Source of the DNA: Bradyrhizobium sp. 1(2017)
Lineage (GTDB): Bacteria; Pseudomonadota; Alphaproteobacteria; Rhizobiales; Xanthobacteraceae
Assembly: GCF_011602485.2 (NCBI RefSeq)
Contig: NZ_CP050022.2
Span: 7,770,001 to 7,834,000, forward strand
DNA: 64,000 bases
Direction: 5' to 3'
Part shown: positions 65 to 58,151 of the stretch, one piece after another
How the letters are laid out: every line of letters starts with the position of its first letter
Numbering within the stretch: the first letter of the stretch is position 1
The notes under the pieces: model-generated
Told to the model about the DNA's origin: nothing
The model's input: the letters and a program-made list of their open reading frames with translations, nothing else
The model's database searches: none
Position numbers and translations under genes: made by a program

Positions 65-124
65 GGGCGTGAGCGCTGCCTGGGGCTCACAGTCACCGAT
101 AGAAGCCAATACCCGCGCGATGAT
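65..124 (-). promoter_or_regulatory. conserved small-gene leader element, copy 1
   Basis: On the minus strand this reads ATCATCG, a spacer, TATCGGTGACTGTGAG, a spacer, then GCGCTCACGCCC. It is a slightly diverged member of the 14-copy family and ends just before the partial gene at the window edge. Confidence 0.65.
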
Positions 125-204
125 GTTTAGACAGTGCGCTTCTTATCCTTGGAAAGCAAACTCAATTTCAGAAGGACCCCAGTGTGTCACGCCTCGCAAG
201 CCAC

Positions 205-390
205 TCATCCTAGTCTCGCAATATGAGAACAAGTGGTCATGAGCAGCATGGATCGACTGCATTGCCAATCTTGCCCCAAGGTCGGCTCAAACACCCTGCG
301 GGGGGTACCGATTGCAATAATGGCGCCAGCCGCAACCAGAAAAACGGCCGTCAAAGCGAGCATTCGCGAGGTCGTCCAATCAAATTCCAT
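205..390 (-). CDS. small single-pass membrane protein
   Basis: A 61 aa protein with one predicted membrane helix (about residues 10-27, MLALTAVFLVAAGAIIAIG) followed by a short polar tail containing PRRVFEPTLG. The start is supported by GGAGGAAAG directly upstream of the ATG. Similar short membrane proteins recur in Bradyrhizobium, but no function is known. It stands alone between the leader-driven gene at the window edge and an empty stretch to about 613. Confidence 0.6.
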   Translation of the reverse strand: MEFDWTTSRMLALTAVFLVAAGAIIAIGTPRRVFEPTLGQDWQCSRSMLLMTTCSHIARLG

Positions 391-613
391 CGCGCTTTCC
401 TCCAGCTTGAGGCGCGCACTCTATACCTGGGGATACCTGCCAATTGTGAACTACATCATACGGCTGCCTCCATGCTCAAGGATTTTTGCTGATTCCCTAG
501 GGGCTGTGGAATGAACATCGTCGCATTTCGAGGCCGGCGACGGTTTTGTTCGCTACTGCCGCCGCATCGGCCCGCCAGCTTGAACCGGCGGGCCTATTGT
601 CGAAAGTCGAATG

Positions 614-1492
614 TTAAGCGGCGGCGACGCCGCACACGACATCACAAACGAGCTTGTCGTAGTCGTTCAATTCTTGTTCGTCGGATCTGTCCTCAAAGAA
701 CCACTCCACCAGCAAGGCCGCCTTTGCCTGCGTAGCACCGGGCGTAGACGGGTCCGCGTCGATAATTACTTTTTGGATGGGGATAATCTGATTGAAGTAG
801 ACGTCGTTCAGGTGGTCCTCGGCTTCCCGGAAACCTGTCTTGATCTTGAGCGCATCGCAGACGGCGCGGTGCTCATCAGCAGCTTTCAGAGCCTCGTCGA
901 GACGCCGCTGTTTCAGTTCGTCAGGCTTGCTCTTGAACAGATGCAGAAACCCGTCTTTCGGTCGAGCTAGACCGGCGTCCCACATGTCGGCAGCCTCGGC
1001 GTCCTCTGGACCAATGTACTCCCACGAGAGTTGCGGAACGTCTCGCATTTTCCCCAGATCGGTTGGGTCCAAGATGGTGCCATCTTTCGTCTTCCAAGGG
1101 CGAATGTTCAAGCCGTCCATAGGACGCCAGCGCAATGCGGCGGGCCAAGCGGGTCGGCTACTGTTGTACACGGACCATGTCTCGTCAAAGCGGGCTTGTG
1201 CCTCATCGTAGACCGGTTTGAGCTCGCGAAGCTTTTCGAGGGCGGCAATCAGTGTCGCATCGACACCAGCATGAACCGGGGTTGATGTTGCGGTAAGCGC
1301 AGCTGCGCCGACGAAAACATTCATGATTGATCTCCTGCTGATCTGCGCCCCGCGCTCAGAAATGCTTGAAGGGGCGGTTGGTTCTGATCGCGCTGATCCG
1401 GGCTGACATGCGTCAGGCCCGCTTTCCTGCTTGTGGGATGATGATGAAAATAGTCCGGCGCCCGTGGCGCACTTAGCTACCGCGTTGCTCAT
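614..1492 (-). CDS. hypothetical protein with Tat-like signal
   Basis: 292 aa from the ATG at 1492, which has AGAGAAAG just upstream. Residues about 50-72 read ISRRSIMNVFVGAAALTATS and end in a VHAG-type cleavage region, resembling a twin-arginine signal, so the mature part may be exported. A second in-frame ATG at 1324 has an even better Shine-Dalgarno site (CAGGAG) and would give a 236 aa protein beginning MNVFVGAAAL without the arginine pair. The mature part is soluble, rich in Trp, Asp and Lys, and has no motif I recognise. Confidence 0.6.
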   Translation of the reverse strand: MSNAVAKCATGAGLFSSSSHKQESGPDACQPGSARSEPTAPSSISERGAQISRRSIMNVFVGAAALTATSTPVHAGVDATLIAALEKLRELKPVYDEAQARFDETWSVYNSSRPAWPAALRWRPMDGLNIRPWKTKDGTILDPTDLGKMRDVPQLSWEYIGPEDAEAADMWDAGLARPKDGFLHLFKSKPDELKQRRLDEALKAADEHRAVCDALKIKTGFREAEDHLNDVYFNQIIPIQKVIIDADPSTPGATQAKAALLVEWFFEDRSDEQELNDYDKLVCDVVCGVAAA

Positions 1493-1563
1493 GTCTTTCT
1501 CTATATTGCGGATTGATGATTGACCGAACACCGCCCGTGCTCGGTCCGTGAAAGGCGGCAAGC

Positions 1564-2175
1564 CTAAGGTTGCTTCACCTCCTTCCGAGCTTGCCAGCCG
1601 AATAGCTGGGACCACAGGGGATCGAAGTGCTCGCAAAGGTCATGAAACGCGACCTGAGCTGCGCTCTCGATCAGCTCGACTTGCAGGCGCGGCCAAACAG
1701 CCGTCGCCTGAACCTGGGGCGTCCAGTGGGCTGAGTTGAAGCCCTTGCGCACGCCTTCAATGGTGTCGTGGAAGTAGCCCTCACACTGGCCAACCGTGCC
1801 GAGCCTGACTGCGAGCATGCCGATTACTCGCTGCTGTTCGGGAGAGAGCAGGTCCCATGCCTTGCCAGCATCGAAGCTGGCCAGCTCATTAAATGTAGGC
1901 AGCCGATCAGATAGGGGGATTTCGGCGGTATCGTTGGCCACCTCAAGTGCGGTGGCATTGGAAGTGCTGCGGCGCACGACGATGATTGTACCGGCGTTCC
2001 ATATCGCCACACGACCGTGCTCGCCCTTGCTTAGAGACACTTCGACCTTGCCGCGCGGCGTTGCAACGCCAGCGCTCACACTGAGGACGGTTTCGCCGGA
2101 GCCGGTGACATCGCCCTTAAGCAGCAGGCGAGCCGGGACGCGAACGCGGTCGGTGTTGGTGGTAGGGGAAAGCAT
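1564..2175 (-). CDS. hypothetical protein, possibly phage/ICE derived
   Basis: 203 aa, no membrane segment or signal. The start at 2175 is preferred over 2196 because AAAGGA lies 8 nt before it and the ribosome would come straight from the upstream gene, whose stop is at 2187. The N-terminal half is beta-rich (VRVPARLLLKGDVTG), and the C-terminal half is helical with many Trp and Gln. No family recognised. It forms a two-gene unit with the 116 aa gene upstream, and both are downstream of the divergent XRE regulator. Confidence 0.6.
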   Translation of the reverse strand: MLSPTTNTDRVRVPARLLLKGDVTGSGETVLSVSAGVATPRGKVEVSLSKGEHGRVAIWNAGTIIVVRRSTSNATALEVANDTAEIPLSDRLPTFNELASFDAGKAWDLLSPEQQRVIGMLAVRLGTVGQCEGYFHDTIEGVRKGFNSAHWTPQVQATAVWPRLQVELIESAAQVAFHDLCEHFDPLWSQLFGWQARKEVKQP

Positions 2176-2186
2176 GCCCTGGTCCT

Positions 2187-2537
2187 TTATGCCCAATGCT
2201 GCGGGGGAAGTTCGAAAGCCGGCGCCGTGCCAGTGCGCGCAACGCGGGCCTCAGCGAAGCCGCTGCGCATCTGGAGCGCGAGGTAATAGCTATAGGGTCG
2301 GTTGACGTGGTGGGCGCGACCGCGGCTGGCGAGCTCGTCGGCATAGTCTGCCTTGGCGCGGGCGTGGGCCTCGGTCATGAGCTTGGAGCGGAGCGCGTTG
2401 GCCGATGAGCGCGGCTTGGTGCTAACGGAAGCTTCACGGCGGCCCAAAGCTGGGGTGGGGATGGATTGCCTTACCTGCTCGGTGAGGAAAGAGGCGGACA
2501 TAGCTCCGCCGTTCACCGGAGAGGTGCTGTTGCTCAT
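2187..2537 (-). CDS. hypothetical protein, short helical
   Basis: 116 aa, start MSNSTSPVNG at 2537 with AAAGGCA upstream. The centre (SANALRSKLMTEAHARAKA) is strongly helical and charged. It ends 11 nt before the next gene and is likely co-transcribed with it. It is transcribed divergently from the small XRE regulator at 2616, which leaves about 80 bp for both promoters and makes regulation by that protein plausible. No function recognised. Confidence 0.55.
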   Translation of the reverse strand: MSNSTSPVNGGAMSASFLTEQVRQSIPTPALGRREASVSTKPRSSANALRSKLMTEAHARAKADYADELASRGRAHHVNRPYSYYLALQMRSGFAEARVARTGTAPAFELPPQHWA

Positions 2538-2615
2538 CTGGGTTGCCTTTGTGCTGCGGTCTTGATACAAAATGGATCATAGAGATGATCCAAAAAGTGT
2601 CAAGTAGGAATTGAG

Positions 2616-2867
2616 ATGATTTCGATCGAACAGATAAGAGCTGCGCGGGGACTACTGGGTTGGTCTCAGACCGACCTCGCGGAAGCTGCAGGAAGGTCGT
2701 TGCCAACCATCAAACGCCTAGAGCGCGAGAGCGATGACGGATCGGCCGTGTCCGAAGATGTTCGGGATGCAGTCCGCGCTGCGCTCGAGAAAGCCGGCGT
2801 CGAGTTCATCCCGGAAAATGGCGGCGGTGCCGGCGTGAGACTGGCGAGGAGAGGAAAGCGAAAGTAG
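2616..2867 (+). CDS. XRE-family HTH regulator, small
   Basis: 83 aa DNA-binding protein made of little more than a Cro/CI-type helix-turn-helix. Residues 1-60 (IRAARGLLGWSQTDLAEAAG, then LPTIKRLE) match the XRE fold. The tail GVEFIPENGGGAGVRL is the C-terminal segment typical of short rhizobial XRE proteins. It probably acts as a local repressor. Divergent to the 2187-2537 gene and 16 nt upstream of the 244 aa gene on the same strand, so it may control both. Confidence 0.85.
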   Translation: MISIEQIRAARGLLGWSQTDLAEAAGRSLPTIKRLERESDDGSAVSEDVRDAVRAALEKAGVEFIPENGGGAGVRLARRGKRK

Positions 2868-2883
2868 AAGACGAGATAGGTCC

Positions 2884-3618
2884 ATGGAATACGATCTTCC
2901 ACAGAACTTTCAAAGGCTCCATGAAGCCGAGGAGTTATTGCGAGGCAAATCACTGGACATCATCCGCGACAACGACTTGAAAGCACATCTCGCAATCGTC
3001 GAGCTGGCAATGGACTTGGCCGACATATTGAGACAGTTCCCAACCGACGATGAAGATCTCAAGGTTGTCCAACTCCTCGGAATGCGGACGTTCAACGCCT
3101 TCGCCTCATCTCTCAAGCTGGCGTTGTCCGGGTATATGCAGAACAGCGCACTTGTGATGCGCGACATACTTGAAACTGTTTTTCTCCTTGATCTCTTCAG
3201 AGGCGAGCCATCCTTGATCAGGGAGTGGAGATTTGCAGACAAGCAACAGATCAGAAAAAAATTCTCACCAGTGAAGGTGAGGGAGGCCCTCGACAAAAGG
3301 TATGGGCACACTGCGAAAAGAAGAGCGGAGCTTTATCAACTATTTTCGGAGCTGGCCGCTCATCCAACAATGAAATCTGCTCTTATGCTCCGCCCTGAGA
3401 TTGGCGGAGATGCCGTCATCGGACCGTTCGTCGAGAAAGGGGCGTTGATGGTGCAGCTCTCGGAAATAGGGAGGCTGGCCGTTCAGGTTGGGGAGATATT
3501 AGGTTCATTCATTCCAGGCTGGTGGGGGCCGGCCTCAGCTTGCCGAACTTCCTTCATCCAAGCCAAATCAAACTGGCTCAGCCGGTTCTACCCCGGCAGT
3601 CGCACGAGCAAAAAATAG
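2884..3618 (+). CDS. hypothetical protein downstream of XRE regulator
   Basis: 244 aa, soluble, helical, rich in Leu, Glu and Arg, and more AT-rich than its surroundings, which suggests horizontal origin. It follows the XRE gene by 16 nt and could be its target. The last ~30 residues (SACRTSFIQAKSNWLSRFYP) differ in composition from the rest, so a late frameshift may have replaced the original C-terminus. No catalytic motif is visible and no toxin or antitoxin family is recognised. Confidence 0.6.
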   Translation: MEYDLPQNFQRLHEAEELLRGKSLDIIRDNDLKAHLAIVELAMDLADILRQFPTDDEDLKVVQLLGMRTFNAFASSLKLALSGYMQNSALVMRDILETVFLLDLFRGEPSLIREWRFADKQQIRKKFSPVKVREALDKRYGHTAKRRAELYQLFSELAAHPTMKSALMLRPEIGGDAVIGPFVEKGALMVQLSEIGRLAVQVGEILGSFIPGWWGPASACRTSFIQAKSNWLSRFYPGSRTSKK

Positions 3619-3630
3619 CGCTCCTCGAGC

Positions 3631-3705
3631 CCTTAAGAAAGTCAGTGTCCAGTTCATCCGGAGAACGGCTGTGGGGCCAGCGTGAGGTTGAAGAAGCGGA
3701 AGCGC
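3631..3705 (+). pseudogene. remnant of XRE regulator C-terminus
   Basis: About 75 bp resemble the 3' end of the XRE gene at 2616: KVSVQFIRRTAVGPA here against KAGVEFIPENGGGAG there, followed by a similar basic tail on another frame. No helix-turn-helix part remains. It looks like the scar of a former tandem XRE copy. Confidence 0.5.
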
Positions 3706-3730
3706 TGATTTTTTTTATTTGCAACGCCGC

Positions 3731-3868
3731 TCACGGACGCCTCCGATGCTTGCGCAGGATCGTGCTTGCGCCGAAGAGCATGACCCCGGCATAGGCGAAC
3801 AGAAGGCAGGCAATCGCCCAGCGGGCCCATTCGGGCGCGTCGGGCCCTAACGTGGATGTGAGGAGCAA
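3731..3868 (-). CDS. tiny single-helix membrane protein
   Basis: A 45 aa frame from a TTG at 3868, containing one clear membrane helix (ARWAIACLLFAYAGVMLFGA) and a basic end (RKHRRRP). It begins 6 nt after the stop of the secreted protein upstream (stop at 3875), so translational coupling is likely. The hydrophobic pattern supports coding; the start codon is less certain. Confidence 0.45.
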   Translation of the reverse strand: MLLTSTLGPDAPEWARWAIACLLFAYAGVMLFGASTILRKHRRRP

Positions 3869-3874
3869 TGGGCA

Positions 3875-4507
3875 TCAGGCGTGCTCCTGACACTTAGCGA
3901 CGACCGGATAGGTCCGCACCACTCGATCGCCATCAAGTCGAAGCGGGAGGGGCTTCAGGCGCCAGTGCAGCGCAGGATCGAAAGGCTGATTGTCCTCGTT
4001 CTCGATTGGCAGCCACACGCCGCCGCGGTCATCCTCGGCCGGCCTGAAGCTAGTTGAGATCAGCTCGCCGTCGATGACCAGGCAGTATTGCTGCTCGCCG
4101 AACGTACGCGATTGCCGCGCCCGTCCCAATACTTCGCCAGCACCCGACTTAACCGTCACCTCATATTGGTAGACACCGGGGTTGCAAGGCCCGAACGTCC
4201 GAAGAGCGCCAGCCGGAAGGATGCCGTTCTTTGGCAGGGGAACTTCCTGGCCGCCGTATTCTTGATCAGCTTGGGTAAGCTGCACGAGGATTGAAGCCGC
4301 TCCCTGCGGAACGTCCTTAAGTCGGATTTCTGGATTATCGAAGAGGCTAACGCAAGGCCTTGAGCTGAGAAAGGAGAAGCTCATTGTCATTCCTGCGCTA
4401 GCCTGGCGTGAGACCAGGCCCTGCTGAAGCTGCTGTCGCGCGGCCGTTTGGGCCGCTGCCGAGGTGGCCCAGATCAGGACCAAACATGTGACTGGAATTG
4501 CTCTCAT
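3875..4507 (-). CDS. secreted hypothetical protein
   Basis: 210 aa with a signal peptide (about residues 1-20, MRAIPVTCLVLIWATSAAAQ). The mature part contains the stretch PEIRLKDVPQGAASILVQL and a GPCNPGVYQYEV segment that faintly recall the phosphatidylethanolamine-binding protein fold (YbhB-like); this is weak and should be tested. The ATG at 4507 is preferred over a GTG at 4522 because it gives a standard signal peptide. A decayed copy of its 5' end lies near 31.9 kb on the plus strand. Confidence 0.65.
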   Translation of the reverse strand: MRAIPVTCLVLIWATSAAAQTAARQQLQQGLVSRQASAGMTMSFSFLSSRPCVSLFDNPEIRLKDVPQGAASILVQLTQADQEYGGQEVPLPKNGILPAGALRTFGPCNPGVYQYEVTVKSGAGEVLGRARQSRTFGEQQYCLVIDGELISTSFRPAEDDRGGVWLPIENEDNQPFDPALHWRLKPLPLRLDGDRVVRTYPVVAKCQEHA

Positions 4508-4714: not shown

Positions 4715-4736
4715 CACCATCTCCAGTCCGTACGAA

Positions 4737-4793
4737 GCGGGAGCATTCGGCTCTCAGTCACAGATAGATGCCTAGGGCATCCAAAAAGGTGAT
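4737..4793 (-). promoter_or_regulatory. conserved small-gene leader element, copy 2
   Basis: Minus strand ATCACC, spacer, TATCTGTGACTGAGAG, CCGAA, TGCTCCCGC. Ends 22 nt before the 56 aa gene. Both potential hairpins (ATCAC/GTGAC, and GAG.GC/GCTC) are preserved. Confidence 0.75.
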
Positions 4794-5251: not shown

Positions 5252-5307
5252 GCGGGAGCGCATTTTGCGTTCACGCCACCGATAGATGCTGAGGGCCGCT
5301 CGGTGGT
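5252..5307 (-). promoter_or_regulatory. conserved small-gene leader element, copy 3
   Basis: Minus strand ACCACCG, spacer, TATCGGTGGCGTGAACG, CAAAA, TGCGCTCCCGC. The second hairpin is kept by a different base set (GAACGC/GCGCTC). Ends 24 nt before the 66 aa gene. Confidence 0.7.
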
Positions 5308-6799: not shown

Positions 6800-6853
6800 G
6801 GCGGGAGCGCAATGCTCTCAGTCACCGATAGATGCCACGGATCGAGCGGTGAT
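6800..6853 (-). promoter_or_regulatory. conserved small-gene leader element, copy 4
   Basis: Minus strand ATCACCG, spacer, TATCGGTGACTGAGAG, CAT, TGCGCTCCCGCC: a consensus copy. GAGAGC/GCGCTC can pair with an ATT loop. Ends 23 nt before the 33 aa membrane protein. Confidence 0.85.
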
Positions 6854-7119: not shown

Positions 7120-7174
7120 GGCGGGAGCACACGGGCTCTCAGTCACCGATAACAGCAGAGGATCGGGCGGTGAT
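7120..7174 (-). promoter_or_regulatory. conserved small-gene leader element, copy 5
   Basis: Minus strand ATCACCG, spacer, TATCGGTGACTGAGAG, CCCG, TGTGCTCCCGCC. The change to GTGCTC is balanced by possible G-U pairing. Ends 20 nt before the 57 aa CxxC gene. Confidence 0.85.
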
Positions 7175-7627: not shown

Positions 7628-8270
7628 GCTGACCTCCGCAAAGGAGCGCGGCGTCCGACATGGGCTTCCGTCGATACGTTAGTGTCGATGCTGACGGCCG
7701 GCGGAAAGCCGCCGTCTGCTCGGTCATCGCGAATACAGCTCCGCCTCCAAGCAACATCACCAAGCCCATGGCGTCGTATCGGCACCCCGGCGCGGCGACG
7801 TGAACACCGAATAGATCCATAGCGCTCCAGCCGAGATCGCAAGCCGCGCGGCCCCAGTTCGACAGGAAGGCATCGGCGCCTTCGATCATCTGAAACCATC
7901 GCTCTGCTCCGGCCCACTCGGGTACTTGCATTCGCTTCAGTTCCTGCAGAATTGCATGCCATCCGGAGGTGTCGTCCTCGAAGATTTGGGCCGTTCGCCC
8001 CTCTTCAAAATTAGTGGTGGCAGTGGGGACACTGGGGACACTCCGCGTAACCAGTTCAATTCCCGACGTTTTCCTGTCCCCACTCGCCACCAGGGGCTGT
8101 CCCCACTCGTTTTTGAGTGGGGACACGGTCGTCTCTTGAGTGGGGACAAAAAAGTCGTTGTGCTGCAGCGACTTCTCGGAAGTGTCCCCACTGCCACCAC
8201 TGTCCCCACTCGTTTTCATGAGGGCCGCGATGTCCCGGGAGAAGGCTTGCAAGTCATGCTTCATTTGCAT
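7614..8270 (-). CDS. hypothetical protein of primase operon
   Basis: 218 aa. The N-terminal third is low-complexity because its DNA holds a cluster of GTGGGGACA-type decamers. The middle (WHAILQELKRMQVPEWAGAE) is conserved-looking and amphipathic. The start overlaps the end of the primase-helicase gene by 17 nt, so translation is coupled. Met at 8264 is an alternative start. Found beside DUF927 primases in integrative elements of related bacteria as far as I recall; role unknown. Confidence 0.6.
   Translation of the reverse strand: MQMKHDLQAFSRDIAALMKTSGDSGGSGDTSEKSLQHNDFFVPTQETTVSPLKNEWGQPLVASGDRKTSGIELVTRSVPSVPTATTNFEEGRTAQIFEDDTSGWHAILQELKRMQVPEWAGAERWFQMIEGADAFLSNWGRAACDLGWSAMDLFGVHVAAPGCRYDAMGLVMLLGGGAVFAMTEQTAAFRRPSASTLTYRRKPMSDAALLCGGQHAIR
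8017..8215. repeat. cluster of GTGGGGACA decamers in both orientations
   Basis: At least seven copies of (A)GTGGGGACA or its complement TGTCCCCAC lie in 200 bp inside the 218 aa gene, some as close as 12 nt. Iteron-like spacing raises the possibility of a replication or control site for the mobile element. Simple repeat expansion is the alternative. Confidence 0.6.
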
Positions 8271-10275
8271 CCTCCAGGAACGTCGAGCGGATGTGGTAGA
8301 GCCGCATCTTCCCGTACTCGGGGACGCGAACTGACTTGGCCATGTGGGAGCCTTCGCCCTCGATGTAGCCCTTCTGCCTCAGCGTCGCTGCTACGCGCCG
8401 CGGGTCGAGCCCGGCGCAGATTTCCTTCCATGCCGTGGTGGTGACGTAGAAGTCCCAACCATCGCCCATCTGCTCTCTGAAGCCGGCGACGTCGCGAGCT
8501 TGCATCCCCTTGGGGGCGTTGTCCTCCCATGCCGGGATGAAGCGAGACATACCGTCCTTCAGCAGGAAGGTTCTCACCTGCTCCATTCCGGCCGCCGTCT
8601 CCGCCGCTTCATGCCCACCGCGCGCTGCGAGCCACTGCTCGAAGCACAGGGCGGCTGCCTTCACGGCGCCTCCTCGCGACCAGGGCAAGATCTCGTACAG
8701 CGTCGCGATCTCGCCGCCGGCAGCGATGAGCCCGAACCGCTGAGCCACGCGGCCAACCTGCCCGTCTGCTCCTGCCGGCACATAGGTGTCGCAGAAGCTC
8801 TTCACGACATCCTTCACGGTCTTCCGGATCTCTTCGATGTGCGGAACGATGGCGTCGAGGTATTGTCTGGAGGCGACGCCGTAGTGCTGTTGGGTTGCGG
8901 TCTTCAGGTGAACAGCGAGGGCGTCCGCTGAGGTGAACCCGTGCAGCTGTTCGAACATCCCCATCCCGGCGCCGGCATCTGCCGACACATCCACGATCCG
9001 GATCTGCTGACCGGCTGCCAGACGCTTGCCGCGGCCATCCTCAGCCACCTTGTCGGAGAGGCCGATTTCACCCGACGACAGGAAGAGGACACGCCACTTC
9101 GCCGCCCGACGGGCCGAGCCGTCGCGTGTGCTGCGGGACTTACCCGAGCCGTTCGCGAGCATGTAGGCGGCTTCGCCGGCATCCTTCGCCGCCAGCTGGG
9201 ACAGCTCGTCCAGGCACAGCAGCGTGTCGCAGTGCGCCAGTGAGACGCCCTCCAGGCCGTTGGCCGTCGATCGCCATGAGCGGATGTAGCCATTGGTATC
9301 GCCGCCGCCCCAGACGCTGCCGGCGACATGCAAGGCCGTGCTCTTGCCCGTGGATGAGGCGCCCTTGAAGTGGACGCCACCACCCTCGGCCGCGCAGGGG
9401 CCGACCAGCGGTCCGGCAAAGGCCGCCGACAGCGCCAGCACGAGCCGACTGTTACCGACGGCGTACCGAGCAACGTTCTGTTGCCAGCTCTCCAGGCTGC
9501 CTGCCTGCCGGAACGGGTGTTCGTGGGCAGACGCGCTCTGCAGCAGCAAGAGGTCTCGATCGTCAACGGCGAAGCACTCATCCGGCATGACGAACGAGTT
9601 GCCGTGCCAGCCCACCCGCTGGGTAGCCCTGGCCCGCTTCGGCGATCTCACCTGAAGCAAGAATGAGTTGAACAGGTTGCGAGCGGTGTTGCTGGGCGAG
9701 ATGAAGAACCCGCCATCCATCAGGATCCGACGCGCCTCCGAGCCGTCTCCAGCCAAGGTCGCCCGCGGCAGCGCGAATTGGTGCTCGCGACCATCGTGAT
9801 CGCGCCAGCGCAACAACACGCCCCAGCTTGCGCCATCCGTGTCACGGGTCTCCGCCACGACGTCGAAGTGGCCGGCTACCAAGATCGCAGGCTTGTCCAG
9901 ATCGTCCGGATTGCTCCACATCAGTCCCCGGTCAGAGAAGCTGTAGCCCACCGGCAGGGCGGACTTCTTCTTCTCGGCCCGGGCCTGAACGTCCTCCTCC
10001 TGGCTCGGCTCTTCCGTTGAGGGCTTCCATTCCTCAGTCGCCCGAGCCTTCTCCTCGAGATCCTGGAATGAGCGCCCGGCTTCGAACCAGTCGGACACGT
10101 CCTGCTTCTTTTCCAGCTCTGGGAACCGCACGACACGGATGCTCTCGACGACGCCGAATGCGAGGGCCGCCTTTGCATCGGCGTGATCCGATCCCTCGTC
10201 ATCGTTGTCGGCCAGGATCACGAGATGCTTGCCCGCGAAGTACTGCTCGCAACGCGCCGGCAGCCCATCGCCCAC
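8254..10275 (-). CDS. DUF927 primase-helicase, N-terminally truncated
   Basis: 673 aa from the first GTG in the frame. The start of the frame keeps the end of a TOPRIM primase domain (HLVILADNDDEGSDHADAKA, residues 18-37), then a linker, then a DUF927 helicase with Walker A GASSTGKST (305-313) and Walker B LLCLDELSQ (352-360). The TOPRIM homology continues upstream of the GTG (AVTFGG) until an in-frame stop, and the zinc-finger and catalytic N-terminus are gone. DNA replication of a phage or ICE; probably not functional as primase. It follows the cut recombinase gene at 10307. Confidence 0.85.
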   Translation of the reverse strand: MGDGLPARCEQYFAGKHLVILADNDDEGSDHADAKAALAFGVVESIRVVRFPELEKKQDVSDWFEAGRSFQDLEEKARATEEWKPSTEEPSQEEDVQARAEKKKSALPVGYSFSDRGLMWSNPDDLDKPAILVAGHFDVVAETRDTDGASWGVLLRWRDHDGREHQFALPRATLAGDGSEARRILMDGGFFISPSNTARNLFNSFLLQVRSPKRARATQRVGWHGNSFVMPDECFAVDDRDLLLLQSASAHEHPFRQAGSLESWQQNVARYAVGNSRLVLALSAAFAGPLVGPCAAEGGGVHFKGASSTGKSTALHVAGSVWGGGDTNGYIRSWRSTANGLEGVSLAHCDTLLCLDELSQLAAKDAGEAAYMLANGSGKSRSTRDGSARRAAKWRVLFLSSGEIGLSDKVAEDGRGKRLAAGQQIRIVDVSADAGAGMGMFEQLHGFTSADALAVHLKTATQQHYGVASRQYLDAIVPHIEEIRKTVKDVVKSFCDTYVPAGADGQVGRVAQRFGLIAAGGEIATLYEILPWSRGGAVKAAALCFEQWLAARGGHEAAETAAGMEQVRTFLLKDGMSRFIPAWEDNAPKGMQARDVAGFREQMGDGWDFYVTTTAWKEICAGLDPRRVAATLRQKGYIEGEGSHMAKSVRVPEYGKMRLYHIRSTFLEDANEA

Positions 10276-10306
10276 CCCGCCGAACGTGACGGCGCAGCCG
10301 CCGCGC

Positions 10307-11008
10307 TTAGCCGTGGCTGTTCAGCCACTTCGTCGTTTCCTTCACGCCGAGCGGGCCGGTTGTGCCATCCCCGTCCAAGTACAGCTTGAAGATCAGCCTG
10401 ACGGTTTCAGCTTCCACCGGATCGGTATCGAGCTTCTTCTTGATCTTCTGACCGCGTCGCTCCGCTTCAACGATCTTGTACCCGAGCGGAGGCGTTGCCC
10501 CATTCCAGAATCCCTGCCGCGCCGACTCCAACATTGCTCGTTTCGTATTTTTAGAAATTTCGCGTGAGGTGTGCTCGTCGAACGCTCCAATGATCTGTCG
10601 CACGAGAATTTGGCTAGGATCGTCGCCGGTAGGTTGCGTGACCGAAACCACTTCGACGCCGTGCTTGCGTAGTTTCCGGATCGTCAGCTCCATTTCGGCG
10701 ACGTTGCGGAAAAATCGATTGAAGGCGTAAAAAACGATCGCGTCGTACGGATGATCAGATGCGCAAGCGCGGTCGATCATCTCCTGCAGCACGGGCCTGC
10801 GATCGTCGGTCGCGGTCTTCGCTTCGACGAATTCATCGACGATCAAATAGCTGTTCTGATCACAGAAACTGGCCGTGATTTTTCGTTGGCTCGGGATGCT
10901 GGCTTCGGTGGTGAGTTGTCGGCCCGTGCTAACTCTATAATACGTGGCGGCGCGCTTCGTTGCGTTTGATTGCTTCGGGATCGAATTGCGAAAAACGTGC
11001 TTGTTCAT
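10307..11008 (-). CDS. large serine recombinase, C-terminally truncated
   Basis: 233 aa with the resolvase catalytic domain: YYRVSTGRQ puts the nucleophile at Ser27, followed by SIPSQ, DDRRP and FNRFFRN motifs. The recombinase domain begins (ESARQGFWNGATPPLGYKI) but the frame stops right after KWLNSHG, where the family normally goes on with YRTR and a zinc-ribbon/coiled-coil part. Such enzymes integrate and excise mobile elements. The missing end suggests a deletion that fused this gene to the primase remnant; activity is unlikely. Confidence 0.85.
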   Translation of the reverse strand: MNKHVFRNSIPKQSNATKRAATYYRVSTGRQLTTEASIPSQRKITASFCDQNSYLIVDEFVEAKTATDDRRPVLQEMIDRACASDHPYDAIVFYAFNRFFRNVAEMELTIRKLRKHGVEVVSVTQPTGDDPSQILVRQIIGAFDEHTSREISKNTKRAMLESARQGFWNGATPPLGYKIVEAERRGQKIKKKLDTDPVEAETVRLIFKLYLDGDGTTGPLGVKETTKWLNSHG

Positions 11009-14912: not shown

Positions 14913-14965
14913 GGCGGGAGCGCAACACTCTCAGTCACCGATAATAGCCAGGGACGCGCGGTGAT
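14913..14965 (-). promoter_or_regulatory. conserved small-gene leader element, copy 6
   Basis: Minus strand ATCACCG, spacer, TATCGGTGACTGAGAG, TGT, TGCGCTCCCGCC. GAGAGT/GCGCTC pairs with one G-U in place of C-G. Ends 21 nt before the 35 aa membrane protein. Confidence 0.85.
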
Positions 14966-31534: not shown

Positions 31535-31590
31535 CATCACCGTTCTGCATCCTGGCATTTGCCGGTGACTGAGAGTGTTGCGCTCCCGCC
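31535..31590 (+). promoter_or_regulatory. conserved small-gene leader element, copy 7
   Basis: ATCACCG, spacer, TGCCGGTGACTGAGAG, TGT, TGCGCTCCCGCC. Ends 19 nt before the zinc-ribbon gene at 31610. Confidence 0.85.
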
Positions 31591-31609: not shown

Positions 31610-31855
31610 ATGGCCCAACCTCAAAGCCCGTCACCTGCCGTTGCACCGATCACAATCCAGCGCCCCCTCTGTCCAAGGTGCAAGGCTTCGATGATGCTCC
31701 TCAGCGTCGAGCCAGAGCGCCCAGGCGTGGACTTGCATAGGTTTCAGTGCGCACTCTGCAATGACGTACTTACGTTGCGTGCCGCCTACGAAGATCCTAT
31801 GTGTTCCAGGTCCCTTGGCCGCTGGCTACAAGGCGATTTGCATCCACCGAAGTGA
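31610..31855 (+). CDS. small zinc-ribbon protein
   Basis: 81 aa from MAQPQSPSPA with GGGAGG before it. CPRCKASMMLL and FQCALCNDVLTL form a CxxC...CxxC zinc ribbon; the C-terminus is basic. Similar in outline to the 52 aa protein at 44977. Possibly nucleic-acid binding. The leader element links it to the tiny-gene regulon. Confidence 0.75.
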   Translation: MAQPQSPSPAVAPITIQRPLCPRCKASMMLLSVEPERPGVDLHRFQCALCNDVLTLRAAYEDPMCSRSLGRWLQGDLHPPK

Positions 31856-37158: not shown

Positions 37159-37219
37159 GGCGGGAGCGCAATCGGTCTCTCGGCCACCGACGCCTACGGG
37201 CAGAGCCGAAGCCGGTGAT
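37159..37219 (-). promoter_or_regulatory. conserved small-gene leader element, copy 8
   Basis: Minus strand ATCACCGG, spacer, GCGTCGGTGGCCGAGAG, ACCGAT, TGCGCTCCCGCC. Closely similar to copy 11 at 50269, and similarity extends about 40 nt further upstream (CTCTGGCAA, TATTGTCT). Confidence 0.8.
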
Positions 37220-42995: not shown

Positions 42996-43048
42996 ATGGG
43001 AGCAACACGCTCCCACTCACCGATGGATGCCGAGAATGCAGCGGTGAT
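42996..43048 (-). promoter_or_regulatory. conserved small-gene leader element, copy 9
   Basis: Minus strand ATCACCG, spacer, CATCGGTGAGTGGGAGC, GTGTT, GCTCCCA. The second hairpin is a perfect 7-bp stem (TGGGAGC/GCTCCCA) formed by different bases from the consensus, the best covariation evidence in the set. Confidence 0.8.
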
Positions 43049-47284: not shown

Positions 47285-47338
47285 GGCGGGAGCGCAAAGC
47301 TCTCAGTCACCGATAACAGCCACGAAGCGCGCGGTGAT
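47285..47338 (-). promoter_or_regulatory. conserved small-gene leader element, copy 10
   Basis: Minus strand ATCACCG, spacer, TATCGGTGACTGAGAG, CTT, TGCGCTCCCGCC: a consensus copy. Confidence 0.85.
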
Positions 47339-50268: not shown

Positions 50269-50329
50269 ATCACCGGCCGAGGCTTGTCCCGTAGGCGTCG
50301 GTGACTGAGAGACCGAGAGCGCTCCCGCC
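50269..50329 (+). promoter_or_regulatory. conserved small-gene leader element, copy 11
   Basis: ATCACCGG, spacer, GCGTCGGTGACTGAGAG, 8 nt, GCGCTCCCGCC. Near twin of copy 8, including upstream bases. Ends 22 nt before the DUF6894 gene. Confidence 0.8.
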
Positions 50330-50351: not shown

Positions 50352-50588
50352 ATGGAACGCTATTTCTTTGACATCCAGAGTGGCCGCGAGTTTTTCGCCG
50401 ACGAGGAAGGACAACGACTGCCCAATCAGAAGGCTGCTGAAGTTGAAGCGATGCAAACGCTGACCGGGATCGCCAGAGAGTCCGTGTTCAAAGGCAGTCG
50501 TCCAGATTTGGCGGTGGAAGTGCGCTCGATGACTGAACGGCTTTTCTGCGTATCGATCGTCTATCGAAGTGAGAGCACCAAACATTGA
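50352..50588 (+). CDS. DUF6894-type protein
   Basis: 78 aa: MERYFFDIQSGREFFADEEG, then AAEVEAMQTLTGIARES and RPDLAVEVRSMTERLFCVSI. Small alpha/beta fold widespread in Rhizobiales; paralogues at 51068 and 57833. The leader element suggests control with the other tiny genes. Function unknown. Confidence 0.85.
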   Translation: MERYFFDIQSGREFFADEEGQRLPNQKAAEVEAMQTLTGIARESVFKGSRPDLAVEVRSMTERLFCVSIVYRSESTKH

Positions 50589-50728: not shown

Positions 50729-50785
50729 GTCACCGCCCCACCCGAGGCAACCATCGGTGATGAGAACGCCTGTCGCGCTCCCGCC
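50729..50785 (+). promoter_or_regulatory. conserved small-gene leader element, copy 12
   Basis: GTCACCG, spacer, CATCGGTGATGAGAACG, CCTG, TCGCGCTCCCGCC. Somewhat diverged; ends 18 nt before the GTG of the KARQ-family gene. Confidence 0.75.
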
Positions 50786-50803: not shown

Positions 50804-51001
50804 GTGCAGGTTCGTAGCGAGTCTCAATCTTCGACATTCGAATACCGTCTCACTCAAGAGGCGATCAATTTGCGCCAGCAGGCTCAAGGAATGCCTGTTT
50901 GCGTCCGGCTCGCCGAACTACTTCAGAAGGCCCGGCAGATCGATGTTGCCCTGGAGGTGAACAGGTGGCTCAGTTCTCCGGGACTTCAGCCGCCAATGTA
51001 A
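50804..51001 (+). CDS. small KARQ-family protein
   Basis: 65 aa from a GTG with GGGAGAAAG before it. FEYRLTQEAINLRQQAQGMP, LLQKARQIDVALEVNRWLSS, PGLQPPM: closest to the 5027 protein. Leader-driven. Helical; function unknown. Confidence 0.75.
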   Translation: MQVRSESQSSTFEYRLTQEAINLRQQAQGMPVCVRLAELLQKARQIDVALEVNRWLSSPGLQPPM

Positions 51002-54071: not shown

Positions 54072-54085
54072 TCGTCGCTCTCGAT

Positions 54086-54301: not shown

Positions 54302-54597
54302 CCACCCTGCTCGTGTAATTCGGTTTCACGATGATGCCGTGTGATCGCGAGTTCGACTATCGCACCGACCTGTTTTTGCGTTTCGTCGGTGCGGGCGCAG
54401 GCAGCGATGCCGCGAAACGCGGTGTCGGCAACTTCCTTGGCCTCACGCAGCTCGCGGAGGCGCGCCATGTTCTTTCGCACCTCGATGGCCTGCCGTTCCG
54501 CGTCAGCCAATGCCCGCGCGCCGTCTTCAGCAGCCAATCGCTTGCGGTTCGAGCGCGCGATGCCTTCGGGCGACGGCTCTGCCGATTTCCTGGCCAT
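54148..54597 (-). CDS. helical NMARLRELREAKE protein, extended frame
   Basis: 149 aa from MARKSAEPSP, but only the first ~75 residues look native (RKRLAAEDGARALADAERQA, VRKNMARLRELREAKE), related to the 31139 protein. The rest overlaps the 71 aa gene in another frame and is Arg/Ser-rich, so the original stop was probably lost by a frameshift. Confidence 0.55.
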   Translation of the reverse strand: MARKSAEPSPEGIARSNRKRLAAEDGARALADAERQAIEVRKNMARLRELREAKEVADTAFRGIAACARTDETQKQVGAIVELAITRHHRETELHEQGGCLESKQTAGERSLSCLRLAQHDRCAGLRRRFRLTSRPSVISTNIEKNSSI

Positions 54598-54623
54598 CAT
54601 CCTCAACCCGCATTAGGATAAAC

Positions 54624-54654
54624 AAAACCCGCTCCATCCGAAGATCGAGCGGGC
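54624..54654 (-). terminator. terminator after cspA
   Basis: Minus strand CCCGCTC, loop, GAGCGGG then TTTTGTTT, 43 nt after the cspA stop codon. Good Rho-independent terminator. Confidence 0.8.
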
Positions 54655-54696
54655 AGCGTGCCGTTTCAGTACATCCGTGAAAACGGCGTCGACAAA

Positions 54697-54906
54697 TCAA
54701 GCCAGCGAGAGGTTTTCGGCGCTCACTTTGCCGCGCATCTTGTCGGTCTTGACCTCAAAGCTGACCTTTTGGCCCTCGGCGAGACCCGCAAGGCCAGCCC
54801 GTTCGACCGCGCTGATATGAACGAACACATCATTGGTGCCGTCGGTCGGTTGGATAAATCCAAAGCCTTTTTGGCCGTTGAACCACTTAACAGTGCCTGT
54901 CGTCAT
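54697..54906 (-). CDS. cspA: cold-shock protein
   Basis: 69 aa CSD single-strand nucleic-acid chaperone. [18 protein letters not shown] holds RNP1 (KGFGFI), and [13 protein letters not shown] holds RNP2. Start at MTTGTVKW with TTGGAGAACG before it. Divergent from rpsU, an arrangement common in Rhizobiales. A long 5' region (about 450 bp to rpsU) may carry cold-responsive RNA structure. Confidence 0.95.
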
Positions 54907-55356
54907 TTTCGTTCTCCAAGGCGCACGAGCGCGTACCGCGTGACAATCACGCGATTGCTTCAACTTCGTCGATGTCTTTGGAAAAGGAGCCCGCGGGCGC
55001 GTTCAACAAGGCACAGCGGCTAATCGAATTTCTCTGATATATATCATTTTCGGCTTTTTGCAAGGCAACACTCAAAATTGTTTCCGAGAGCGCTGCTACT
55101 CGAGCGCGTTTGGGCGAACGTTCCTTTGCGATCGAGGGGCTCCAAACGACGTGTGGGAACGGCTCTATCCATTGACAGCGCGGCTTACAGTAGTCACGTT
55201 GCTCTACCGAACTTGATTGCCGTGACGCATAGACCGGCTTGTTCGAGGCCGGCGGAAGAAGACGCCGTCACTCCCATCATCACAATCGCCACGAGACTCC
55301 TGCGCAATTGGCTGCATGCAGGAATTGCGCATTCGCAGCCCAGCGAGGAATTTCAA

Positions 55357-55635
55357 TTGCAGGTACTTGTTCGCGACAACAATGTCGACCAGGCCCTTCG
55401 TGTTCTGAAGAAGAAGATGCAACGCGAGGGTGTCTTTCGCGAAATGAAGCAGCGGCGCTCATACGAAAAGCCTTCGGAAAGAAAGACGCGCGAAAAATCC
55501 GAGGCTATTCGCCGGGCCCGTAAGCTCGCTCGGAAGCAGGCCATCAGGGAAGGTTTGCTGCCGGCGTCCCCCAAGAAGAAGCTTCCAGAGCGCAAGCCGC
55601 CGTTGCCGCAGATCGCCGGCAAGGAACGCGCGTAA
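55357..55635 (+). CDS. rpsU: 30S ribosomal protein S21
   Basis: 92 aa from a TTG with GAGGAATTT before it. [54 protein letters not shown] are S21 sequence. The C-terminal extension is basic, as usual for this group. Rhizobia often carry extra S21 genes beside csp genes. An upstream frame in phase lacks conserved residues. Confidence 0.92.
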
Positions 55636-55769
55636 CGGGAATGCCGCGCGTAGAGGAACGTTGTTGCTATAGATTCATTGCCATGGTGGTTGCGCCGGGT
55701 TCGACGCAGCGAAAGCCAGGGTCCGTAGCTGCCAAATTCCAGTCGCGGTCTCTAATCCAGGAGATTGAG

Positions 55770-55973
55770 ATGGCGAAGACGGATACGAGTGATCATCGCA
55801 TTCTGGTCCAACGCGCGCGTGCCGCCCACCTGGCTGGCAAAGCCATAGACGAGAGGGCGGACAATTCTGCGAATGGCGATGATCAAGCGATGCGAAGGCA
55901 GCGTTTGATCGAGGGACCATCAGAATTCAGGGCCGCCCGAGTCGATCGTTCAAGAAAGGCTCTTGATCGTTGA
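55770..55973 (+). CDS. small Arg-rich RKRAL-family protein
   Basis: 67 aa from MAKTDTSDHR with AGGAGATTGAG before it. RARAAHLAGKAIDERAD and RRQRLIEGPSEFRAARVDRS match the 5878 and 46328 proteins, though here without the segment neighbours. Function unknown. Confidence 0.75.
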   Translation: MAKTDTSDHRILVQRARAAHLAGKAIDERADNSANGDDQAMRRQRLIEGPSEFRAARVDRSRKALDR

Positions 55974-56133
55974 CTGGCTATCAGTCGCTTACGGGTTCCT
56001 TGCGACTTCCGGAACGCGTTGACATTGTCTTGAGCATCGGCCTGTCCGTCTCTGCTCGGCGAGTTATGGGGCGGCGGGGTCAACTTGTTAAGAATTCGCC
56101 TAAGCGGCTCCAGTATCACGACGTGGCAAGTTG

Positions 56134-56412
56134 TTAGGTTCTGAAATCGATGCCACGCAACACGATGCCCCGTGGATCGCCTTCAAGTTCCGTCGCTCGA
56201 TACTTGCTGGCCGCGCGGGCCTCGATGCGGTCGCGTAGGCGGATGAACTGAGCTTCGCGCTGCTCGGGGCGGACCTGCGGGCCGCGCTCGAGATAGTCCA
56301 TCGCGGTGGTCGAGATCGCGCAGGGAATTTCCTTACCGCCGTCCTGCATCGAGAACAGTACGATCATCCGGTCATATTCGTGGCCGATGTAGCGACCGCT
56401 CGTGAGCGTCAT
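56134..56412 (-). CDS. DUF1488-type protein
   Basis: 92 aa from MTLTSGRYIG. MIVLFSMQDGGKEIPCAIST, then FIRLRDRIEARAASKY and a GIVLRGIDF end: DUF1488-like. Last gene of a three-gene leftward unit (57023 to 56134). Function unknown. Confidence 0.75.
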   Translation of the reverse strand: MTLTSGRYIGHEYDRMIVLFSMQDGGKEIPCAISTTAMDYLERGPQVRPEQREAQFIRLRDRIEARAASKYRATELEGDPRGIVLRGIDFRT

Positions 56413-56473
56413 GGTTTCCTCCTTTACGCGATGGTTGCTGGCACGATCGCGCGTGCGGAAAGTTGCTCTGCCG

Positions 56474-56770
56474 TCAGCCCTCGCCGGAGAGCCGAACGAA
56501 GTCGTCGAGCAACGCCGCCACCAGCGCCCGATGCCTCGTATCCTCGGCAGGCAGGCTCGCGGCATAGAGGTTGAGCAGATGCCGCGCCTTGACGGCCGCC
56601 TCCGGCCAGGAGGCGGCGGGCACCGTCATCATGCGATGTTCAAGCTCGGCCTCCCGCTCGCGCAATTCCCTGACATGGGCCTCGACCTCGGCCAGCGCGC
56701 GGCGCAGATCGGTAGCCTTCTGCGCAGCCATCCCGCGATGCTTGTCGAGATCGACGGGATGGTCAGTCAT
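56474..56770 (-). CDS. small coiled-coil protein
   Basis: 98 aa from MTDHPVDLDK. Residues 15-50 (ATDLRRALAEVEAHVRELRE) are a coiled coil; the end LVAALLDDFVRLSGEG is helical. Start overlaps the stop of the upstream gene by 8 nt, so translation is coupled. Function unknown. Confidence 0.7.
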   Translation of the reverse strand: MTDHPVDLDKHRGMAAQKATDLRRALAEVEAHVRELREREAELEHRMMTVPAASWPEAAVKARHLLNLYAASLPAEDTRHRALVAALLDDFVRLSGEG

Positions 56771-57023
56771 GGCTCGCATCCGCAGCCTGCGCATTGGCAA
56801 GGTCGACCGAGCCGATCGAGAGCATCTCCATGGAGTCGCGAACGCCTTCGGCGGGCACCATGATCATCGTAGCGACGCGTCGATAGGCCGAGAAGGTGAG
56901 ACCCTCGATTGTCTCTTCATCGGTGACGACCTCGTAGGCGCCGGCGGGCAGCACTCGCTCGATGCCGCGGATTCGGAACGGATGTCTGAACGTGACGGTC
57001 TCTCGCCGTGAGCGGATGGTCAT
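56763..57023 (-). CDS. 86 aa family protein, intact copy
   Basis: From MTIRSRRETVTFRHPFRIRG, then GIERVLPAGAYEVVTDEETI, ATMIMVPAEGVRDSMEMLSI. Beta-rich. Two decayed relatives at 18722 and 22917 show the family has been copied around. First gene of the three-gene unit. Function unknown. Confidence 0.8.
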   Translation of the reverse strand: MTIRSRRETVTFRHPFRIRGIERVLPAGAYEVVTDEETIEGLTFSAYRRVATMIMVPAEGVRDSMEMLSIGSVDLANAQAADASHD

Positions 57024-57200
57024 GCACGCCTGCCTTTTTTGCAAGAGGGCCCCTGACCGACCGACAGCAACGACCATGCGCTCATCATTGAGCAATAGCC
57101 AGCACATTCGTCATTCCCGCGCGCTGACGCCGCAGTGCAGCCTTGCCCGAACTGCGTTTTAGTACTCGCTATTGGTGCCTCGCAGGCGTAGGTTTGTCGC

Positions 57201-57257
57201 ATCACCGCTCTTCTCAACGGCATCGACCGGTGACTGAGGGTCACGTGCGCTCCCGCC
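57201..57257 (+). promoter_or_regulatory. conserved small-gene leader element, copy 13
   Basis: ATCACCG, spacer, GACCGGTGACTGAGGG, TCACG, TGCGCTCCCGCC. Ends 22 nt before the 32 aa membrane protein. Confidence 0.85.
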
Positions 57258-57279
57258 GACGGAGTTGCAGGAGCGCTCG

Positions 57280-57378
57280 ATGTCGCGTTTTCGCGCCTCG
57301 GAATGGATCGTCCCGCCGGTGATCGTTCCGTTATTCCTTTTGCTTCTGGTGTGTGCTGCGGCCATCCTCAATGGCTAG
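57280..57378 (+). CDS. 32 aa membrane protein, EWLVPP family
   Basis: MSRFRASEWIVPPVIVPLFL followed by the rest of one membrane helix and AAAILNG. GCAGGAGCGC before the ATG. The last bases overlap the start of the next gene (ATGGCTAG), so the two are translationally coupled. Confidence 0.8.
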   Translation: MSRFRASEWIVPPVIVPLFLLLLVCAAAILNG

Positions 57379-57718
57379 GGCAAAGCGCGTGCCTTACCTG
57401 GTCACGGGAACCAACGAATATGGCAGCGCAAATCTCGGGCGCGGCAGCGCGACCGTTGCACTGCGGCTCGCGCGAAAGCTGCTGCGTGACGGCTACATGG
57501 ATGTCCGCGTCTGTACGCCGCGCGGGCGCATCCTGCAGTCGGACGAACCGAATGAACTTGAATTCCAACGGGAGATGGACGTCATGGCCAAGGGACAGCA
57601 ACGCGGCAATCGCGAAGCCAAGAAGCCGAAGAAGGAAAAAGCCAAGGTGATCGCGGCACAGCCCAGCCGGAAAGAGGTCGTCTGGCAGCCGGATTTCGGG
57701 TCTGCGAAAAAGAGGTAG
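57371..57718 (+). CDS. two-part small protein, possible in-frame fusion
   Basis: 115 aa. Part one: VPYLVTGTNEYGSANLGRGS, then LARKLLRDGYMDVRVCTPRG; part two, from an internal Met at 57584, is MAKGQQRGNREAKKPKKEKA with a WQPDFGSAKKR end, which resembles a free-standing rhizobial small protein. A strong GGGAG lies 9 nt before 57584, so a second product may start there. No leader of its own. Confidence 0.65.
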   Translation: MARAKRVPYLVTGTNEYGSANLGRGSATVALRLARKLLRDGYMDVRVCTPRGRILQSDEPNELEFQREMDVMAKGQQRGNREAKKPKKEKAKVIAAQPSRKEVVWQPDFGSAKKR

Positions 57719-57832
57719 GCGGCGCAGTCAAGCGTGAGGCGGACGCTTGACCGCTATTGCGGCGCGACGAGGGGCCACCTCATGGATGCTCGAAGGTGGA
57801 TCGAGGAGCAACGCCGGGACCCACAAGCCGTG

Positions 57833-58078
57833 TCACTGTTGCCGCCCTCCGTCCCCAAATTCGAACCCGACATGCATCACGGGACCGGCGTCGTCCCGTA
57901 CCTCAATTGCCAAATGGCGCTTTGAAGAGCTGCCAGAGTCATACGTCGCATCCCGTGCCATGTCGGCCAATGACTTTGCCGCCTCAACCTGCACCGCCCG
58001 AAAGTCCGAAAGTTCCAGACCTTCCTCGTCAAGGAACAGGCCGTCATCGTCGACGAGATCGAAGTAGTACCGGGTCAT
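57833..58078 (-). CDS. DUF6894-type protein
   Basis: 81 aa: MTRYYFDLVDDDGLFLDEEG, then VQVEAAKSLADMARDA and LAIEVRDDAGPVMHVGFEF. Third DUF6894 member in the window. A diverged leader element ends 17 nt before the start. Confidence 0.85.
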   Translation of the reverse strand: MTRYYFDLVDDDGLFLDEEGLELSDFRAVQVEAAKSLADMARDATYDSGSSSKRHLAIEVRDDAGPVMHVGFEFGDGGRQQ

Positions 58079-58095
58079 GACGCGCTCCGGAGACA

Positions 58096-58151
58096 GACGG
58101 GAGCTCCATGTGTCAGCGACCGATGCCCCTTGTGCAGCCTCGATCGGTGAT
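58096..58151 (-). promoter_or_regulatory. conserved small-gene leader element, copy 14 (diverged)
   Basis: Minus strand ATCACCG, spacer, CATCGGTCGCTGACAC, ATGG, AGCTCCCGTC. First stem kept; second weak. Confidence 0.6.

Follow-up and report, generated by a model that had tools for sequence, protein, structure and literature searches.

Bradyrhizobium species include symbionts of soybean. A 64,000-nucleotide stretch of the genome of Bradyrhizobium sp. 1(2017) (contig NZ_CP050022.2, positions 7,770,001 to 7,834,000), hereafter the window, carries fourteen copies of a short sequence element, each directed towards a small gene. The original prediction had proposed that this element is a shared 5' leader which folds into two stems and defines a group of small-protein genes. 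On direct reading, each of the 14 sites proved to carry the sequence as described, or a variant that can still be recognised, in the orientation claimed. Named after their positions in the window, ten copies are on the minus strand (65, 4737, 5252, 6800, 7120, 14913, 37159, 42996, 47285 and 58096) and four on the plus strand (31535, 50269, 50729 and 57201). An open reading frame (ORF) lies downstream of every copy, the element ending about 17-24 nucleotides before the start codon, and the 13 complete targets encode 32-81 amino acids; the target of copy 65 extends past the window edge. Twelve of the 14 copies are clear, copy 4737 is weak and copy 58096 degenerate. In RNA letters, the element comprises a first helix, P1 (UCACCG/CGGUGA), and a second hairpin, P2 (GAGAG/CUCCC), which is preceded by a conserved CU linker after P1. 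Towards the 3' side of the P1 loop lies GGC, to which a terminal GCC directly after P2 is complementary, forming a potential pseudoknot.

The top-scoring copy, 6800 (6800..6853), precedes a 33-amino-acid ORF of the REWLVPP family (6776-6675). Copies 14913 (14913..14965) and 47285 (47285..47338) serve members of the same family, with ORFs of 35 (14891-14784) and 33 amino acids (47262-47161), respectively. Copies 37159 (37159..37219) and 50269 (50269..50329) belong to a class with AGGCG in the P1 loop; the former has the pseudoknot strands GUAGGCG/CGCCUGC, with one U-G pair, and a 58-amino-acid target (37135-36959), the latter a 78-amino-acid DUF6894 target (50352-50588). Downstream of copy 31535 (31536..31590) is an 81-amino-acid ORF with CxxC pairs (31610-31855). 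Copy 7120 (7120..7174) has an EcfG-type promoter (GGAAC-N16-CGTT, CGTT beginning 11 nucleotides upstream of the first base of the element) and a 57-amino-acid target (7099-6926). In copy 57201 (57201..57257; 32-amino-acid ORF, 57280-57378) the strand GCGCUCC is complementary to the Shine-Dalgarno region GGAGCGC. P2 is GUGAGC/GCUCAC in copy 65 (66..124; predicted transcript start at 124, target ORF from 47) and a GAGAACG variant in copy 50729 (50729..50785), whose 65-amino-acid ORF has a GTG start (50804-51001). As claimed, copy 42996 (42996..43048; 50-amino-acid ORF, 42975-42823) keeps the second stem with other bases (UGGGAGC/GCUCCCA); its terminal GCC is lost. In copy 5252 (5254..5307; 66-amino-acid ORF, 5227-5027) P1 is CCACCG/CGGUGG and the pseudoknot AGC/GCU takes the place of GGC/GCC. 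The weak copy 4737 (4737..4793; E=0.015 genome-wide with the model R1 described below) has a broken P1, UCACCU/CUGUGA, before a 56-amino-acid ORF (4714-4544) for which longer in-frame starts are possible. Copy 58096 (58096..58151), in front of an 81-amino-acid DUF6894 ORF (58078-57833), is without CUGAGAG, and its membership in the element family is doubtful.

Across the 7,858,280-base genome the strict pattern CGGTGACTGAGAG-N2..16-GCTCCCGCC has 13 occurrences, its reversed control none. A covariance model, R1, was built from 12 window copies, leaving out 4737 and 58096. At E<0.02 it finds 32 matches in the genome, 13 in the window and 19 outside, the latter being sequences absent from the training of the model; copy 58096 is missed even among the 41 matches at E<=10. 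The copies lie mainly in two clusters, at 7.284-7.301 Mb and 7.768-7.828 Mb, with few elsewhere. In the first cluster (region 7284128-7301056, within locus L262, which runs to 7303400) two pairs of matches, 7285033/7299252 and 7285327/7299546, repeat at a 14.2-kb offset, and a recent duplication is therefore suggested.

Within the genus, R1 (E<=0.01) detects the element in 71 of 72 sampled genomes, our own included, with 1-38 copies each, and in none of 48 sampled genomes outside the genus. A sample of the family gave matches (E<=0.001) in 90 of 198 genomes and in 26 of 47 genera. A scan of named loci with R1 yielded at least 120 stretches. Among the matches listed (80), most are from Bradyrhizobium; the other taxa are Afipia, Nitrobacter, Tardiphaga, Rhodopseudomonas, Microvirga and some metagenome bins. 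Some named Bradyrhizobium loci (e.g. L093, L124 and L138) contain leaders and target proteins nearly identical to those of this genome. In a sample of the order, R1 alone gave 15 of 297 genomes (E<=0.001), and a broader model, R2, built from 53 matches, gave 44 of 397 genomes and 16 of 141 genera (E<=0.01). R2 in a sample of the class gave 6 of 240 genomes, our own genome among the six.

The placement of the element is tied to gene starts, contrary to a random scatter through the genome. An ATG with a Shine-Dalgarno-like motif follows within 12-45 nucleotides in 153 of 198 copies, as compared to 4-13 of 187-200 at shifted or opposite-strand control positions. Position and orientation relative to the gene start are fixed, the start codon lying about 20 nucleotides after the end of the element. 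Complete targets have at most 100 amino acids in 180 of 193 cases, with a median of 62. That the element stands before small proteins only holds in the window; elsewhere nine longer proteins (median 230 amino acids) carry the leader, forming one Crp/Fnr-like cluster with the target of locus L083. The queried part of this target contains a cyclic-nucleotide-binding domain as in Crp/Fnr regulators, and a 60-amino-acid part of the L090 target has no Pfam match. Eighteen target queries against Pfam gave only DUF6894 (three queries) and cNMP_binding (one) above the curated cut-off. Ten of the 13 complete window targets were queried, and apart from the two DUF6894 proteins (50269 and 58096) the other eight have no Pfam match. 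A DUF6894 protein is also found behind the element in a Microvirga bin (L101), and similar ORFs, recognised by eye, are found behind it in other families of the order. The 197 targets reveal no shared pathway of the kind regulated by a riboswitch; they fall into 37 clusters, 23 of them single proteins, and the largest (84) may chain families. Differences within the REWLVPP family number 1150, 511 and 1611 at the three codon positions, and third-position differences are also commonest in four other target groups, with few pairs each, so the target ORFs look translated.

A homology search with one small target protein yielded 30 loci. R1 places the element (E<0.05) in 17 of them, directly upstream of the matched ORF in 15; in L273 and L282 it serves the neighbouring gene. 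Five loci (L279, L280, L281, L282 and L285) show a second shared leader, approximately CCCTACGGTTAGGACCCGTAAG..GGAGGTTGCG-ATG with variants, up to about 50 nucleotides upstream of the matched ORF. The genes behind this second leader are paralogues of one small-protein family without the main element. A C-terminal motif like W[LI]xSPGL[QR]xP is common to several otherwise different small targets, including the window ORFs 5227-5027 and 50804-51001 and their relatives.

Evidence that the element is an RNA comes from P1. Its pairing, proposed from TCACCG and CGGTGA, is kept in 98.7% of cells in 115 distinct copies, 99.4% in 56 copies and 97.1% in 48 diverged copies. In each of these three sets, five of the six pairs show double-sided changes, and the covariation score of the whole structure is reached by none of 500 shuffles. 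The alignments were fitted to the model and consequently lean towards the structure. Alignment A5, of 56 copies, includes three matches at E 0.17-0.36, probably false, which were excluded from A6 and R2. In the diverged set, whose count includes two probably spurious loci (L296 and L330), 53 cells of the whole structure are double changes, 52 of them in P1, as compared to 19.7 in shuffles, and 0 of 500 shuffles reach 53. Another measure, how many pairs have a double change, shows no significance in this set (reached by 180 of 500 shuffles). Slid registers of P1 pair far less than the true one in the same copies, and changed helices include UCAUCG/CGAUGA, CCACUG/CAGUGG and GCGUCA/UGACGC. G-U pairs account for 32 of the 40 P1 cells in this set that lack Watson-Crick pairing, as would be expected of an RNA rather than a DNA palindrome. 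P1 is thus strongly covarying, and covariation, one of the checks set for the prediction, favours an RNA leader.

P2 is nearly invariant, the commonest pair being present in 47, 48, 45 and 48 of the 48 diverged copies at four positions. Covariation is therefore of little help in judging the second stem. At its second position 43 of 48 copies have an A-C mismatch; the exceptions are G-U in L304 and L328, G-C in L309, C-C in L324 and A-U in L323, whose 3' strand is altered. Among the window copies, 65 has U-A here and 42996 has G-C. An A-C wobble is isosteric with a G-U wobble. This isosteric exchange fits a real helix and is too little for proof. In the register of R1 only 71% of helix 2 cells are paired (115 copies), due to the A-C mismatch position and a variable inner pair.

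The original prediction had missed the pseudoknot, the promoter predicted directly upstream and the complementarity of the second-stem 3' strand to the ribosome-binding site. GGC and GCC are invariant in most copies, so the pseudoknot pairing can be judged only in diverged ones. L296 and L330 were dropped as probably spurious, and the remaining 46 copies were cut to 36 by removing near-identical ones. In these 36, the duplex of a copy's own partners has a better energy than that of permuted partners (z=-4.45, P=5e-5), while the control half of the P1 loop shows no effect in the same test (P=0.20). The test was also run with 46 and with all 48 copies, the latter again giving P=5e-5. Changed yet complementary strands are found in L299 (CUUGG/CCAAG), L328 (CAAGC/GCUUG) and L331 (GCGGCG/CGCCGC), as well as in copy 5252 and its relatives (AGC/GCU). 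The match is not kept in some copies, among them 42996, without GCC, and 7120, with UGC against GCC. In the AGGCG class before redundancy removal the contiguous helix is longer than shuffled (P=0.0012), and the total of paired cells is not above shuffled (P=0.13).

Predicted promoters would place the element at the very start of the transcript. When 201 unique upstream sequences are aligned on the first base of the element, a TATATT-like hexamer appears at -12 to -7 with a weak -35, and C stands at -1 in 62%. A two-box promoter fit scores 654 as compared to about 100 in three shuffles. Among the 187 copies without an EcfG box, 101 have a [TC]AnnnT hexamer at -11..-13, against 7 and 3 at control positions. 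The EcfG-type promoter GGAAC/CGTT stands at matching distance in 14 of the 201 copies (shuffled mean 0.96, maximum 4), with 2 such boxes in an upstream control window. In the diverged set without the two probably spurious loci, 25 of 46 copies have the hexamer, against 1-9 at controls. Within the window it is found at -12 or -13 in 11 of 14 copies and at -10 in copy 47285; copy 7120 has the EcfG box instead and copy 58096 neither promoter type. Transcription is thus predicted to start at the first base of the element, from a sigma70-type -10 or an EcfG-type promoter, and not downstream of it, where starts would have pointed to a DNA motif. That two kinds of promoter predict the same start is an argument for counting the element as part of the RNA. 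In many copies the -35 region, about 30-45 nucleotides before the element, agrees with T[CA]GC.A, frequently inside TTGACTCGCTATT, and is unlike the usual TTGACA. This unusual -35 may mark a specific sigma factor or activator.

At its other end the element lies next to the ribosome-binding region. This downstream region is complementary to CUCCCGCC, which makes up the 3' half of the fold; the Shine-Dalgarno partner is GGAGC in many targets and GGCGG in the REWLVPP family. GGAG occurs in 109 of 197 targets and is followed by C in 64 of the 109, as compared to 64 of 198 control genes with computed, not annotated, starts (P=1e-5). Thermodynamic ensembles of 197 leaders, which cannot include pseudoknots, predict a mean pairing probability of 0.60 between CUC and the Shine-Dalgarno and of 0.20 between CUC and the upstream GAG, both nearly constant from 10 to 50 C. 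In the REWLVPP leaders of L073 and L160 the predicted fold pairs the CUC of P2 upstream while CCGCC pairs GGCGG. CUCCCGCC would therefore pair either within P2 plus the pseudoknot or with the Shine-Dalgarno.

We consider it somewhat more probable than its contrary that the element is a 5'-terminal pseudoknotted mRNA leader controlling translation of the gene behind it. The leader position before the start codon, P1 and the pseudoknot are indicated by the data, and the shared 5' leader proposed at the outset gains support from P1 covariation, placement and the predicted starts. Shine-Dalgarno pairing by CUCCCGCC is predicted, as is the transcript start. Transcription would start at the first base of the element, and the RNA would fold into P1, the CU linker and hairpin P2 (GAGAG..CUCCC, with its A-C mismatch). 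GGC of the P1 loop would then pair with GCC after P2, and the resulting pseudoknot would leave the Shine-Dalgarno free. With P2 and the pseudoknot unformed, CUCCCGCC would instead pair with the Shine-Dalgarno region (GGAGC, GGGAG or GGCGG) and hide it. We infer from this that the leader switches, that a factor acts on it in trans and that the folded state is the ON direction, with pseudoknot formation most likely turning the switch ON. Translation of all the small genes could be set together by a shared ligand, protein or small RNA able to stabilise or disrupt the fold. The wider proposal falls a little short of an even chance: an unnamed class of pseudoknotted riboregulator that begins at the first nucleotide of short mRNAs, as many as a few dozen in one genome, with one signal setting their translation.

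Several results weigh against a translational switch of this kind. In a model-free MAFFT alignment of 19 related leaders, P1 shows no significant covariation (67 of 500 shuffles); it pairs in 92.9% of cells there, with too little variation for a verdict. In the pseudoknot-free ensembles of the 197 leaders P1 forms with a probability of only 0.55 on average. The GAGAACG variant of P2 is paired in 95.5% of cells in the same 19 leaders and shows no variation. The pseudoknot test fails inside the AGGCG class alone (12 of 31 copies after redundancy removal, P=0.59), and the outer pseudoknot pairs by themselves are not significant (P=0.099). Own Shine-Dalgarno pairing is not clearly better than pairing with swapped partners (P=0.106 and P=0.068), and 39 of 500 shuffles reach the score for covariation between Shine-Dalgarno and anti-Shine-Dalgarno in 19 related leaders. 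Since CUCCC/Shine-Dalgarno covariation is weak, the hiding step is plausible rather than shown. As most queried targets have no known function, they point to no ligand or signal.

Other readings have to be set beside the pseudoknotted leader. A small RNA acting in trans or an RNA-binding protein, e.g. of the general stress response, could use the element as its landing site; conserved UAUCGGUGACUGAGAG and CUCCCGCC would be the contacts, and binding would open or close the start site. The partner is hypothetical, and we regard this reading as rather unlikely. It would explain why conservation in the stretches between the stems and past them exceeds what the structure demands, and it can draw on the EcfG-type promoters at 14 of 201 copies. 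There is also a precedent in Caulobacter, where the general-stress small RNA GsrN activates katG translation via the katG 5' leader (PMC5869019). However, 187 of the 201 copies are without an EcfG-type box, and the pseudoknot suggests a self-contained fold. An improbable alternative is a leader without any switching, whose 5'-terminal hairpin and pseudoknot do no more than shield the mRNA against 5'-end-dependent decay or insulate its start site. P1 begins one base after the predicted transcript start and the short mRNAs of tiny proteins would presumably benefit, but a simple stabiliser needs neither the conserved CUGAGAG nor CUCCCGCC, nor the complementarity of CUCCCGCC to the Shine-Dalgarno.

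An RNA thermometer, whose Shine-Dalgarno hairpin melts on heating, is very unlikely: most leaders are predicted to have a paired Shine-Dalgarno region, as such a sensor would have it, yet predicted pairing stays constant at 0.58-0.60 from 10 to 50 C. The models predict no loss of pairing over this range, which speaks against temperature sensing by simple melting. A DNA operator or promoter part is rejected and appears extremely unlikely. The fixed orientation and the location within about 60 base pairs downstream of the predicted promoter would suit it, whereas the loops of P1 and P2 vary widely in length, G-U pairs are frequent in P1, the pseudoknot partners covary, and spacing is maintained relative to both the start codon and the -10 box. 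Least likely of all is a dispersed repeat, similar to repetitive extragenic palindromic (REP) sequences or a cassette end, standing before genes by chance. The two genomic clusters and the two match pairs at 14.2-kb offset would be expected of such a repeat; against this, its start-codon-tied placement is far above controls, the targets belong to many clusters, and covariation of P1 extends to copies in other families of the order. Placement independent of gene starts, as in REP-type repeats, was not seen.

Membership in Rfam was rejected: Rfam 15 gave no covariance-model match in the window at gathering score, nor did any of its families match the element (E<=1) in 27 additional loci. SAM-II and preQ1-II are H-type pseudoknot riboswitches acting on translation, and SAM-II also occurs in alphaproteobacteria. 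Like these, the element is a short leader with a hairpin plus pseudoknot whose 3' strand is close to the Shine-Dalgarno. Unlike these, it has its P2 inside the pseudoknot and no Rfam riboswitch match, and its targets are many different small proteins and not a metabolic pathway. The serC, speF, ybhL and metA leaders are structured RNAs of the same bacterial class (Corbino 2005, PMC1273637), and ybhL has a putative transcript start near its hairpin. As far as that article's accessible text goes, each belongs to one gene type or pathway, whereas our element stands before many different genes in each genome and matches nothing in Rfam. Br-REP1 and Br-REP2 (Hahn 2016, PMC5082802) are likewise repeated and structured in Bradyrhizobium. 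Identity with them was rejected, because their sequence, in the portion of the article at hand, differs; they are located in 3' untranslated and intergenic regions. Rhizobiales-1 and Rhizobiales-2 are candidate RNAs of the same order (Weinberg 2010, PMC2864571). Rhizobiales-2 (RF01723, no match to the element) has the table entry 'y ? n', and Rhizobiales-1, known here by description and not by sequence, has no Rfam number in the accessible part and the entry '? n N'; we interpret the second entry as a verdict on cis-regulation. A literature search found no description of the element, most subscription papers and supplementary tables being outside its reach, so novelty in print is unproven. None of the papers within that reach mentions DUF6894.

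Many rhizobial small proteins are without known function, and nothing linking them was found. Our results suggest that many unrelated tiny mRNAs begin with one folded RNA segment beside the ribosome-binding site, a shared, unnamed small-protein switch. If true, this would be a post-transcriptional regulon of unrelated tiny proteins in Bradyrhizobium and its Hyphomicrobiales relatives, independent of the sigma factor. A shared covarying leader marks tiny ORFs as likely real, predicts their start sites and offers one switch for many. A leader that senses a ligand would represent a new class of riboswitch, one with unusual targets; should it bind a protein or small RNA, it would define a new post-transcriptional regulon.

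Apart from the element, a DUF927 protein lies beside a resolvase-domain protein at 8257-11008 of the window, near the small-gene cluster. This pair suggests an integrated mobile element in the vicinity.

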